Shown here piece after piece: positions 19,534 to 23,972 of a stretch of DNA of 64,000 nt. This DNA is from Microbacterium sp. AZCO (GTDB taxonomy: Bacteria; Actinomycetota; Actinomycetes; Actinomycetales; Microbacteriaceae), in the NCBI RefSeq assembly GCF_039614715.1, contig NZ_CP154857.1:868001-932000 (forward strand), given 5' to 3'. The notes beneath the pieces were generated by a model. The model worked only from the letters and a program-made list of their open reading frames with translations. It was not told the DNA's origin and searched no databases. The stretch's first letter is position 1, and the number at the start of each line of letters is the position of its first letter. Made by a program: the position numbers and the translations under genes.

Positions 19534-20166
19534 GTGGGCTCGGGAGCGCAGACCTCGCCTGAGGAGCCGTCGCGCTCGGTCGAGGTCGAGCTGAAGTTCG
19601 ACGTCGACGACGCCACGCCCCTGCCCGACTGGACGTCGATGCCGGGTGTCGCGTCCGTCTCGCCGCCCGAGGTGCGCGAGCTCGACGCCCGCTACTTCGA
19701 CACGGCCGACCTCGCTCTGGCGCGCGCGGGCTACGCCGTGCGACGTCGGACGGGCGGCCCCGACGCCGGCTGGCACATCAAGGGCCCGCGCGAGGGCGAC
19801 GGCCGCACGGAGTGGCACTGGCCGCTCGGCGACGAGGATCGCGTGCCCGAGGGTCTGCGCGCCCACCTCGCGTCGGTGACGGATGCCGAGCTCACCCCGC
19901 TCGCCCGCATCCGCAATCACCGCACGGCGTACCACCTGCGGGACGCCGACGGGGGAGTGCTGGCCGAGTTCGTCGACGACCATGTGGTCGCGACCGACGA
20001 GCGCCGGGGTGTCGAGCAGACCTGGCGCGAGTGGGAGCTCGAGCTCGGCGACGCCGCGCCCGACGACCCCGCTGCGTTCTTCGCCGCCGCGACCGATGCC
20101 GCGCACGCGGCCGGCGCCCGGCCCGCGGCATCCGATTCCAAACTCGCCCGCACCCTCGGATTCTGA
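19534..20166 (+). CDS. CYTH-domain protein (triphosphate tunnel metalloenzyme)
   Basis: GTG-initiated, 210 residues. It contains the CYTH signature ExExK as VEVELKFDV near residue 12, then ELDARYFDTADLALARAGYAVRRR near 47-70 and WHIKGPREGDGRTEWHWPLG near 80-100, which together build the charged eight-strand tunnel that binds triphosphates and divalent metal. Family members are inorganic triphosphatases, thiamine triphosphatases or class IV adenylate cyclases; sequence does not separate these here. Convergent with lpd across a bidirectional terminator. Confidence 0.85.
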   Translation: MGSGAQTSPEEPSRSVEVELKFDVDDATPLPDWTSMPGVASVSPPEVRELDARYFDTADLALARAGYAVRRRTGGPDAGWHIKGPREGDGRTEWHWPLGDEDRVPEGLRAHLASVTDAELTPLARIRNHRTAYHLRDADGGVLAEFVDDHVVATDERRGVEQTWREWELELGDAAPDDPAAFFAAATDAAHAAGARPAASDSKLARTLGF

Positions 20167-21708: not shown

Positions 21709-21720
21709 ACCTCAACCCTA
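21709..21720 (-). promoter_or_regulatory. Leaderless -10 of lpd fused to the upstream stop codon
   Basis: On the minus strand TAGGGT (21720-21715) precedes ATG 21708 by six bases; its first three bases are the TAG stop of the copC-like gene. Confidence 0.6.
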
Positions 21721-22407
21721 TCGTTCGGCGGGAGGCTCAGAGCCCGGCCCGGGGGCGGCCCCGGGGCCGCCGGGGAGGGTGTCCCGACGGCTGTCCGCAA
21801 GGGCCCGCTGCCGCCGGGCGCGCGAGGCCAGGAGGTAGATCACGGCGGCCGCCACGGCGAGGAGCGCGACGATCAGCAGCACCCACGGCCACGGTCCGGT
21901 CTCGCTCGCCTCCTCGGTCGGGGGAGCCGTCGGCGTCGACGTGGCGACGGGCGATTCCGCCGGCGTTGCGGAGGCAGACTCGGTCGGCGTCGCTGTCGGA
22001 GTCGGCGTGGATGCGCCGCTCACGGTGAAGGAGTACTGCCCCGAGATCGGGTGCCCGTCGCTCGAGACGGCCTTCCACAGGACGGTGACGACACCGGATG
22101 CCTCGCCTGCGAGCTTCTGCGTGATCACGGTGTCGCTGACCGTCGGCGTGCCCTCGACGAGCGAGGCGCCCGCGGCATCCGTCACAGCGACCTCGTTGGC
22201 GCCGGGCTCCGTGGAGATCAGGCCGCTGAAGGTCAGCGTGAGCTGCGCCGGGAGGGCGTCGACCGACGAGTCCGCGGCCGGGTCGGACGACAGGAGCTCG
22301 TCGTGGGCGCTGGCGGGAACGGCCGTCGCGAAGACCGCGGCCGCCGCGAGGGCGAGGGCGGCGAGGGCGTTCAGCGGGCGGCTTTTGTGAATTCCTTGTG
22401 ACGACAC
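21718..22407 (-). CDS. CopC-domain copper-resistance protein with C-terminal membrane anchor
   Basis: Exported copper-binding protein of 229 residues. The signal peptide LNALAALALAAAAVFATAVPASA ends so that the mature protein begins HDELLSSDPA; an N-terminal His is a Cu(II) ligand in CopC. The CopC beta-barrel covers about 37-130, with LTFSGLIS and KAVSSDGHPISGQYSFTV (DGHPxxG is the family signature with a second His). A Thr/Pro/Ser/Ala-rich stalk of about 45 residues leads to a membrane helix (WVLLIVALLAVAAAVIYLLA) and a basic tail. GTG 22407 lies seven bases after TAGGCT (22420-22415). Divergent from the Met/Cys-rich protein. Confidence 0.87.
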   Translation of the reverse strand: MSSQGIHKSRPLNALAALALAAAAVFATAVPASAHDELLSSDPAADSSVDALPAQLTLTFSGLISTEPGANEVAVTDAAGASLVEGTPTVSDTVITQKLAGEASGVVTVLWKAVSSDGHPISGQYSFTVSGASTPTPTATPTESASATPAESPVATSTPTAPPTEEASETGPWPWVLLIVALLAVAAAVIYLLASRARRQRALADSRRDTLPGGPGAAPGPGSEPPAER

Positions 22408-22414
22408 GCGGCAG

Positions 22415-22420
22415 AGCCTA
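22415..22420 (-). promoter_or_regulatory. Probable -10 of the copC-like gene (TAGGCT-N7-GTG)
   Basis: TAGGCT on the minus strand, seven bases before GTG 22407. CTCCG (22431-22435) and CGGAG (22444-22448) form an inverted repeat upstream that could be an operator. The 114-base divergent gap also holds GAACGAGGG twice (22473-22481 and 22504-22512). Confidence 0.45.
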
Positions 22421-22521
22421 TCGGGGTCTTCTCCGAGGCATCCCGGAGCAATACCATGGCCGCAGTCGGCGAGAACGAGGGCCGACACACTCTGTAACAG
22501 AAGGAACGAGGGAGGCGCGGG

Positions 22522-22923
22522 ATGGACTCGATGATGATGGACATGATGTCCAAGGACATGAAGTCGATGCCGGGTATGGACATGATGGACATGTCAGTCA
22601 TGCAGGCGTGTATGGACGCCTGCTCCGCGTGCGAGCAGGCCTGCACGGTGTGCTCGACGCAGATGATGGACTGCGCGCCCGCGTGCATGAACTGCGCCGA
22701 CATGTGCAACACGATGATGCGCGCCATGATGCGCATGCAGGGCATGAACATGGCCTCGATGATGGCGATGCTCGACGCGTGCATGGCGATGTGCCAGCAG
22801 TGCATGGACGAGTGCATGCAGCACGCCGACATGAGCGAGGTCTGCAAGATGTGCGCTCAGGCCTGCAAGGCGTGCATGGACGCCTGCATGGCCATGAAGA
22901 ACAGCATGATGGCGATGGGCTGA
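22522..22923 (+). CDS. Met/Cys-rich four-helix copper-storage-like protein (Csp-like)
   Basis: The 133-residue product contains about 40 methionines and 18 cysteines by hand count, roughly 43% of the sequence. Residues 1-27 are a Met/Asp segment (MDSMMMDMMSKDMKSMPGMD) with no cysteine. The remainder has helical CxxxC, CxxC and CxxxCxxC spacing (ACMDACSACEQACTVC; CMDECMQHADMSEVCKMCAQ), as in cytosolic copper storage proteins of the Csp/DUF326 type, in which Cys side chains fill a four-helix bundle with Cu(I). No signal peptide. ATG 22522 has GGGAGG eight bases upstream. Divergent from a CopC-like gene. Copper storage is inferred from composition, spacing and context; the Met head is unusual. 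Confidence 0.85.
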   Translation: MDSMMMDMMSKDMKSMPGMDMMDMSVMQACMDACSACEQACTVCSTQMMDCAPACMNCADMCNTMMRAMMRMQGMNMASMMAMLDACMAMCQQCMDECMQHADMSEVCKMCAQACKACMDACMAMKNSMMAMG

Positions 22924-22951
22924 GCCCGTCGCCTTTCTTGTTGCTGCGGTC

Positions 22952-23305
22952 TCAGGCGGTCAGCGGAGCGACGTTGAACCGTCGTGAGCCCACGGCGAGC
23001 ACGTCGTAGCGCGTGTGCAGCGCGACCGGCGTGCCGGTCGTGACCTCGTGCGCTGCGCCCGCACCGCTCCAGACGGTGATGGGCGCGGCGCCGTCGAGGG
23101 CGCGGAGCACGAGCGTGCCGTCGGCGAGCGTCTCCTCGACGATCGCGTCCACCCAGTCCGACGGCGTCGCCGAGGCGAGCCGCGACTGGATGAGGTGCAG
23201 GGCGTGGCCCGGTGCGAACGTCGAGCAGGCCCGGCCGTGGACGCACATGCACGCCGCACGCTCACGCACCTGAAGGGGCGGGATGTGGGAGTGCGGGGTC
23301 GACAC
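22952..23305 (-). CDS. Small protein with a CxCxxxxxC motif, unknown function
   Basis: A 117-residue soluble protein. The N-terminal third has RERAACMCVHGRACSTFAPG, a three-cysteine cluster with His that could bind metal or form a redox site; the rest looks like a small beta domain (DGTLVLRALDG, HTRYDVLAVGSRRFNVAPL). GTG 23305 is chosen because AGGAG lies six bases upstream. TAGCCT (23346-23341) is a plausible -10 giving a short leader. It converges with the Csp-like gene with 28 bases between. I do not recognise the family; a link to copper handling rests only on the neighbours and the cysteines. Confidence 0.65.
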   Translation of the reverse strand: MSTPHSHIPPLQVRERAACMCVHGRACSTFAPGHALHLIQSRLASATPSDWVDAIVEETLADGTLVLRALDGAAPITVWSGAGAAHEVTTGTPVALHTRYDVLAVGSRRFNVAPLTA

Positions 23306-23449
23306 GATGGGCTCCTGATCGCTAGGTTCGGATACCCGCAAGGCTAAGCAACGACCCCGGTCGAGGCATCCCGAGCGAAACGGTGCGAAACATTGGGGGA
23401 CGCGCCGGTTCCGCGGAGATCGGCACCTTCACCTCGGTGACCGATCGGA

Positions 23450-23477: not shown

Positions 23478-23972
23478 GTGGAGGACAATCGCCGACCGGA
23501 CGAGATCCGTCGCGCTGGGGGCTTTGACGGTGCCCCCGATCGCCCCGCAGACACGACCCAGACGTTCGGTCACGACGCGGATCTCTCGTTCATCCCGTTC
23601 GGGTCCGATCTCTCCACGGCGGAGCTCGACGCGATCGACGCGCTGCCGGCGCGATCGGCGATCCTGCTGGTGCGCTCGGGTCCCACGGCCGGTGCCCGCT
23701 ACCTGCTCGACACCGATGTGACGACCGTCGGACGGCATCCCGAGGCCGACATCTTCTTCGACGACGTGACAGTCTCGCGGCGTCACGCCGAGATCACGCG
23801 CGATGCGGACTCGTTCGAGATCGTCGACCAGCGCTCGCTCAACGGCACCTACGTGAACGGCGAGCGCGTCGACCGTGCGCGGCTCGTGAACGGCTCCGAG
23901 GTGCGCATCGGCAAGTTCCGCCTGAACTTCTTCGTCTCGCCGGCCGACCTCGCGCAGGCTGCGGACGGCTGA
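23478..23972 (+). CDS. garA: FHA-domain regulator of the GarA/OdhI type
   Basis: Phospho-switch protein that in Mycobacterium and Corynebacterium binds and inhibits 2-oxoglutarate dehydrogenase until phosphorylated by PknG/PknB. The 164 residues carry ADTTQTFG at 24-31 (Thr26, Thr27), matching the phosphorylatable ETTSVF motif, and a C-terminal FHA domain (about 62-155) with VGRHPEADIFF (84-94), VSRRHAEI (99-106) and LNGTYVNGERV. Its last base overlaps the ftsR ATG. The garA-MerR-MerR order matches Rv1827-Rv1828-Rv1830. The start is set by GGAG upstream of the GTG. Confidence 0.9.
   Translation: MEDNRRPDEIRRAGGFDGAPDRPADTTQTFGHDADLSFIPFGSDLSTAELDAIDALPARSAILLVRSGPTAGARYLLDTDVTTVGRHPEADIFFDDVTVSRRHAEITRDADSFEIVDQRSLNGTYVNGERVDRARLVNGSEVRIGKFRLNFFVSPADLAQAADG

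Follow-up and report, generated by a model that had tools for sequence, protein, structure and literature searches.

The closest described relatives of the system reported here are the classical Csp3 proteins. In the passages of PMC5171941 available to us, Cu(I) is removed slowly from these proteins in vitro, also by CopZ, and no dedicated loading protein is named; according to excerpts of PMC10155185, MtCsp3 takes up Cu(I) slowly, to which its gate Asn is reported to contribute. On the regulatory side, a copper precedent is the CopR operator of C. glutamicum, described in part of PMC3140484 as copper-dependent and as a single site in the genome. Here we describe a locus in a 64,000-nucleotide stretch of Microbacterium sp. 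AZCO (contig NZ_CP154857.1, positions 868,001 to 932,000; hereafter the window), which is part of a 4.23-Mb single-contig genome. The locus carries a gene for a Met-rich Csp-like protein, csp, and a convergent gene for a small protein, hereafter the partner, and these two form a conserved and apparently undescribed pair. We lean towards reading the locus as a two-gene convergent copper-buffering unit built around a Csp-like bundle on which the partner would act. An initial annotation, made from the letters of the window, had proposed a small undescribed copper system of three genes including the adjacent copC; the idea holds for csp and the partner gene only.

The convergent csp/partner pair

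Of 299 Microbacteriaceae genomes scanned for both proteins, 86 have the partner protein and 113 have Csp relatives. The partner gene lies convergently within 1.5 kb of csp for 81 of the 82 Csp matches at 45% identity or more (median gap 56 bp), and beside none of the 49 matches below 45%; this cut was chosen post hoc, after the match list was known, and is supported by the split in Met content described below, which falls at the same boundary in a sample of the matches. The single exception among the 82, G305, has csp and partner on different contigs. Seen from the other side, a csp is adjacent in 81 of the 86 partner-bearing genomes, and the five partner matches lacking one (G305, G273, G262, G328 and G313) include three weak matches. 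Among 80 named loci, mostly from Microbacterium and covering up to 3 kb per side, 79 hold the pair, and the 3.6-kb stretch of L244 shows no partner gene. Within the genus, diverged pairs in four further genomes bring the pair-bearing genomes to 20 of 23. Outside Microbacteriaceae, the pair was seen in one further genus, in two of its genomes (L143, L144). The pair changes genomic position as a unit between genomes. In 39 wider contexts no neighbour cluster apart from the pair itself occurs in more than 10, and nine of those 10 loci come from the genus. The open reading frame (ORF) picker used for these contexts overlooked some csp and partner genes, which six-frame reading shows. Open-access literature listings for Met-rich Csp, for Csp in Microbacterium and for Csp in actinobacteria contained no description of this Csp type. 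One record labelled Planococcus sp. APC 4015 (L219) carries a Microbacterium-type pair (79% identity) and is possibly a mislabelled or mixed assembly.

The features of the locus, in window coordinates, are as follows.

22522 to 22923, plus strand: csp, the Csp-like gene, for a predicted cytosolic Met/Cys-rich four-helix-bundle protein (133 residues, 40 Met, 18 Cys)
22952 to 23305, minus strand: the partner gene, convergent with csp, for a 117-residue protein with a Cys-bearing N-terminus modelled as disordered and a predicted OB/TOBE-like barrel
23375 to 23392, minus strand: 18-bp direct-repeat motif 5' of the partner gene (19.2 bits; a site that belongs to the training set of the matrix)
22482 to 22499, minus strand: second copy of the motif, located within the csp leader and opposite in orientation to csp (22.0 bits; outside the training set)
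22452 to 22457, plus strand: possible csp -10 element TACCAT, resembling the CGTArCAT of relatives (position read from the sequence)
21718 to 22407, minus strand: copC, for a membrane-anchored CopC; a neighbour judged to lie outside the unit

All three ORFs of the initial annotation exist, and its description of the pair is accurate in detail: the Met/Cys-rich protein is 133 residues long, of which exactly 40 are Met and 18 are Cys, and the third ORF encodes 117 residues from a GTG at 23305, has C19, C21 and C27 as a CxCxxxxxC cluster and converges on csp across an intergenic gap of 28 nt. Within-genus codon differences peak at position 3 in both csp and the partner gene, a modest signal; together with the separate composition class of the paired Csps, this pattern is the basis on which both ORFs are real and not chance.

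The annotated Csp likeness is borne out by both sequence and fold. The window Csp matches S. lividans Csp at E 2.6e-13, and its AlphaFold2 model (pLDDT, the predicted local distance difference test score, 87.8) has 6qyb as best Foldseek match (E 1.2e-5, TM 0.76/0.84); the top 28 rows are all Csp structures, counting 3lmf as NmCsp3 after an excerpt of PMC10155185, and the predicted fold is accordingly a four-helix bundle. The protein scores 16.8 bits against PF03860 (DUF326; cut-off 20.4) and 33.9 against TIGR04401 (the Csp1 family; cut-off 100), and because it misses these curated cut-offs it is filed as Csp-like. DUF326 is matched at E<=0.01 by 21 of 44 relatives, and most of the listed relatives carry a precomputed PF03860 assignment. 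No export signal is visible in the window Csp.

Paired and unpaired Csps differ as classes. We compared 56 distinct paired Csps, excluding L017 and sequences with an internal stop, with 22 unpaired members of the same family (20 of the 49 lower-identity matches and two others). Met makes up 16.2 to 31.2% of the paired proteins, with the window Csp at 30%, versus 2.3 to 4.6% of the unpaired ones; the median number of Met in the N-terminal arm is 10 versus 2, and the Cys count is 11 to 18 versus 16 to 18. Of the 18 canonical Cys columns the window Csp retains 17, residues that by their place in the alignment probably point into the core; it has Met at the remaining one (column 48) and adds one Cys at the gate. 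The gate column, equated with Asn58 of MtCsp3 and Asp61 of SlCsp3 through the Cys four residues earlier (MtCsp3 Cys54, SlCsp3 Cys57, as numbered in the published passages available), is Cys in all 56 paired proteins (Cys55 in the window Csp) versus Asn in 19 and Asp in 3 of the 22 unpaired; the Asn/Asp gate of classical Csp3s is thus absent from the window Csp. At loop column 48, 33 of the 56 have Met and the residues listed include no Cys, versus Cys in all 22 unpaired proteins. At the mouth, His101 is present in every paired Csp, while columns 105 and 107 hold His in 8 and 3 of the 56 versus all 22 unpaired proteins at both columns; the window Csp keeps one of the three classical mouth His. 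At L147, L148 and L281, genomes with a Met-rich pair (for example G013, G018 and G295) have in addition a distinct Csp3 of the classical kind, poor in Met and with the His triad, so that the two Csp types coexist.

The partner defines an unannotated protein family, found in the 86 of 299 sampled Microbacteriaceae genomes counted above. The window partner has no Pfam or NCBIfam match over a curated cut-off, and 33 members searched against the same collections gave weak single-member matches only. Its model suggests an OB/TOBE-like barrel, of low similarity to known ones, at about residues 45 to 107, behind a disordered Cys-bearing N-terminus, and contains no helix-turn-helix (HTH). The CxCxxxxxC cluster noted earlier does not hold up as a hallmark of this protein: in other genera one or two Cys are left, or none, and CxC was accordingly rejected as a partner signature because it is not conserved across genera. 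A match of the partner profile to designed Tako8 propellers (E 5.4e-12), in which seven repeated stretches of about 50 positions sum up, was judged probably not to reflect homology. Partner-like domains at L131-L142 are encoded by separate genes, often with longer tails, and suggest a wider unnamed actinobacterial family.

A direct-repeat motif 5' of the partner gene

An 18-column motif of 21.6 bits, TGTTtCg.cgtGTGACGg, stands out 5' of the partner gene. It is present there in 40 of 42 diverse loci, a set in which Microbacterium was thinned and in which L035 and L036 are without it. Its log-likelihood is 420 versus 52 to 58 in four shuffles, which were run with 15 starts against 40 for the real set. 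Read as its reverse complement, the motif is a direct repeat with a 10-bp period, a geometry that plausibly resembles sites of the OmpR family such as those of MtrA. A site of at least 14 bits is found 5' of the partner gene in 36 of 43 wider pair contexts and 5' of csp in 10; three other matches, of 14.5 to 18.7 bits, lie away from the pair, at L133, L169 and L175. Across the 80 named loci (496 kb), all 76 sites of at least 14 bits are 5' of the partner gene and none is elsewhere. The 42-, 43- and 80-locus sets overlap and the matrix was trained on the same loci, so these later scans show specificity rather than independent discovery. The whole window contains exactly two sites of at least 14 bits, one per gene of the pair.

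A strict version of the pattern, which overlooks the degenerate sites of the window genome itself, gave 12 sites in 12 whole genomes, six at the pair and six away from it; the reversed-pattern control gave no sites. The strict sites at the pair precede both genes in G205 and the partner gene in G121, G174, G282 and G139. Those away from it (L301, L302, L304, L307, L308 and L311) adjoin unrelated-looking genes; at L304, in G174, an ORF that looks by eye like MsrB ends about 40 bp from the site. In the window genome, the csoR, copA, HMA and CopD loci have no motif at 9 bits or more, and one other P-type ATPase locus has a match of 10.3 bits.

In the csp leader of the window, a motif scan for a -10-type element returned a poor score (0.7). 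In many Microbacterium genomes (leaders L191-L270; window positions 22460-22490) the csp -10 element is followed by a GC-rich inverted repeat, often GGCGGG..CCCGCC and with varying arms. Hairpins are mildly enriched in csp leaders, with a stem of at least 6 in 35% versus 10% in mononucleotide shuffles; by the same measure, merR1 leaders give 29% versus 3%. Rfam gave no match at the gathering threshold between window positions 20000 and 26000.

copC and other copper genes

The adjacent ORF is CopC-like as annotated: it scores 76.1 bits against the Pfam CopC model PF04234 (cut-off 23.3), and reading of the sequence shows a hydrophobic stretch at the C-terminus that would serve as the anchor. It stays below the NCBIfam CopC equivalog cut-off (60.6 vs 95). 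Alignment to 6nfq shows the DxH Cu(II) site to be kept, and an export signal peptide, with a His at the N-terminus after the likely cleavage site, was judged by eye. The start is probably the GTG at 22407 (229 residues) rather than 22488, because an M(S)SQGIH-type start region recurs, by eye, upstream of csp in copC-adjoining relatives.

Among the 23 genus genomes, lpd and odhI flank copC in 21; at the fetched copC locus of the remaining two, neither gene was seen. In 10 of the 23, the window genome included, the csp/partner pair separates copC from odhI, and in 11 the lpd-copC-odhI block has neither csp nor partner gene at that site. Six of these 11 genomes carry the pair elsewhere and four a diverged pair, and G015 is without a Csp match. 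Among the named loci, 39 have both copC and odhI, two have odhI without copC and 38 have neither; copC is absent within 3 kb of the pair in 40 of the 80. In stretches of ±1.5 kb fetched from outside the genus, the sole copC match is partial (L041) and has no adjoining csp. The earlier proposal that CopC and Csp are paired is therefore not supported, and its neighbourhood check divides: copC fails as a conserved neighbour in related genomes, while csp and partner stay adjacent. We judge copC to be a bystander belonging to the lpd-copC-odhI block and not part of the csp/partner unit.

The annotated absence of copper genes nearby was confirmed for CsoR, CopA and CopD; neither these nor CopZ occur in the window (868-932 kb), and CueR was given no separate search. 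Elsewhere in the genome, matches are a CsoR-family gene at 74.9 kb, two HMA domains (77.2-77.6 kb), CopD (3.46 Mb) and five P-type ATPases (76, 806, 1550, 1952 and 3642 kb). The odhI/garA gene has two MerR-type genes beside it, at window positions 23972 and 24780.

Proposed copper buffering, its alternatives and known systems

Family resemblance points to copper as the metal, and the window Csp is likely a copper store, rebuilt at its entrance and rich in thioether sites. In the mechanism we propose, the cytosolic Csp-like bundle would most likely fill its Cys-lined core with Cu(I). The copper entrance would have been rebuilt, with the gate Asn/Asp replaced by Cys, the loop Cys mostly by Met and two of the three mouth His mostly lost, and the Met-rich surfaces and N-terminal arm could offer thioether sites that catch Cu(I) and pass it on. 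The barrel partner would most likely act on the Csp, by docking, by loading or unloading it, or by sensing its load; we infer this because both stay together while all surroundings change. The partner gene, and in some genomes csp too, may be controlled by a regulator that reads the 10-bp-period direct repeat, plausibly a response regulator of the OmpR type. The fuller proposition, that the locus is a new kind of bacterial copper store, with a mixed thiolate/thioether Csp, a rebuilt entrance, a dedicated barrel partner that fills, empties or reads it, and one direct-repeat regulator acting on the partner and in some genomes on both genes, is tentative, and we would not yet expect it to hold in full.

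Several observations weigh against this account. Convergent genes are not an operon, and linkage is no proof of joint action. The 12 fetched loci L131-L142, from other families of the order, encode a partner-like domain and have no csp in the stretch, and no recurrent copper gene adjoins the pair in the 39 wider contexts, as judged by eye. The motif is uncommon on the csp side, reaching 9 bits in 6 of 57 csp upstream regions and 14 bits in none of the 80 named loci; elsewhere in the genus it scores 17.8 bits in G007 and 13.0 bits in G009. At the 17 canonical columns that some paired Csps keep, lost Cys are replaced by Ala, Thr or Ser in 75 of 112 cases versus Met in 16, so Met is no position-by-position compensation, column 48 apart. 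Finally, the Cys count of the partner N-terminus tracks that of the Csp (Spearman 0.76; 73 pairs, excluding duplicates and pairs without a W-x-D match), but co-evolution fails under independent contrasts (r 0.11, p 0.34 on a joint tree; 0.17 and 0.09 with a tree of either gene alone; 0.04 once the zero-Cys group is removed) and is a clade effect.

The replacement pattern of lost Cys also lends itself to a different function, in which the Met-rich protein would chiefly be an oxidant sink or a general thiol/thioether sink, its surface Met scavenging oxidants and being recycled by Met sulfoxide reductase (Msr), and copper secondary: Met mostly does not stand where Cys was lost, and it occupies columns 70, 81, 99 and 119, where classical Csps have polar residues (S, R, E). 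We think this unlikely, since the 17 canonical Cys columns and gate Cys of the window Csp, and the invariance of the gate Cys and His101 across all 56 paired proteins, point to a retained metal core; no Msr-like gene was recognized by eye among the 25 recurrent neighbour clusters printed. Relocation of the pair as a unit, and the lack of any such partner in the Csp3 literature passages available, would suit a Csp that works alone like any Csp3 while the partner merely travels in the same cassette. We give that little credence, because the absence of the partner beside all 49 lower-identity Csps of the same family ties it to the Met-rich Csp type; no plasmid match was found for the Csp.

The recurrence of the motif 5' of the partner gene (40/42, 76/80 and 36/43 loci in the overlapping sets) raises the question of whether the partner could regulate the pair by binding DNA itself, at the repeat 5' of its own gene and in some genomes of csp, and sense Cu(I) through its Cys/His segment. 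No known transcription factor lies within the pair, the only two strict matches in G205 flank it, one per gene, and the stand-alone partner-like genes L131-L142 have no motif close by. Against this, the model has no HTH, 7 of 12 contexts whose partner has lost the N-terminal Cys segment still have the motif upstream, half of the 12 strict matches lie away from the pair, and the 10-bp-period repeats look like sites of the OmpR family such as those of MtrA; a regulatory partner is to our minds improbable. Most improbable of all is a single three-gene copper system in which an extracytoplasmic CopC handles Cu(II) and the cytosolic Csp Cu(I). The three genes do adjoin in 10 of 23 genus genomes and 39 of 80 named loci, and CopC keeps its DxH site and, by eye, its N-terminal His; yet 11 of 23 have copC at lpd-odhI with no pair there, the pair lacks a copC within 3 kb in 40 of 80, and the ±1.5 kb stretches from outside the genus gave nothing beyond the partial match at L041. 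As a conserved unit, this system is largely refuted, and we rejected it on the independent occurrence of copC and the pair. The copper-buffering csp/partner unit is the reading we retain. With its altered gate and its near-constant link to a single small protein, this Csp type offers a handle on how copper enters and leaves Csp stores; if the reading is true, the partner would be the first dedicated Csp partner, none being named in the passages of the Csp literature at hand.

Among known systems, the motif resembles the MtrA direct-repeat sites (PMC5650626 and PMC13189361, both in excerpt) in what would be a pair of GTnAC-like half-sites with a spacing of 5 bp. The site on the csp side in G205, CGTAACATTTCGTAACA, fits MtrA-type half-sites, whereas the partner-gene sites mostly read GMAAC in one half. 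Measured against GTnAC-N5-GTnAC, the spacing would thus fit and one half would deviate in most partner-gene sites. The strict motif finds just 12 sites in 12 genomes, but it is narrower than the published MtrA motif. The CopR operator of C. glutamicum (PMC3140484, in part) is likewise a direct repeat read by a response regulator and differs in sequence, having TGAAGATTT repeats with a 2-bp linker. The window copC shares the domain and DxH site of CopC (PF04234; PDB 6nfq, 5icu) and stands outside the pair. The RkCsp3 subgroup (Methylocystis sp. Rockwell), as described in excerpts of PMC10155185, also lacks the mouth His motif and places Met at the mouth as well as at the opposite end of the core, a trait shared with the window Csp type; its gate is Met where the window Csp has Cys, and no such partner is described in those excerpts. 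With S. lividans-type Csp3 (PDB 6ek9, 6qyb, 6q58) the window Csp shares the predicted four-helix bundle, all but one of the 18 canonical Cys columns, a single mouth His and the lack of a visible export signal. It departs from that type in its 30% Met (16-31% in its class), Met at column 48, a gate Cys in place of the Asp61 of SlCsp3 and Asn58 of MtCsp3 (PMC10155185, in excerpt), a His triad cut to one and a near-constant convergent partner.
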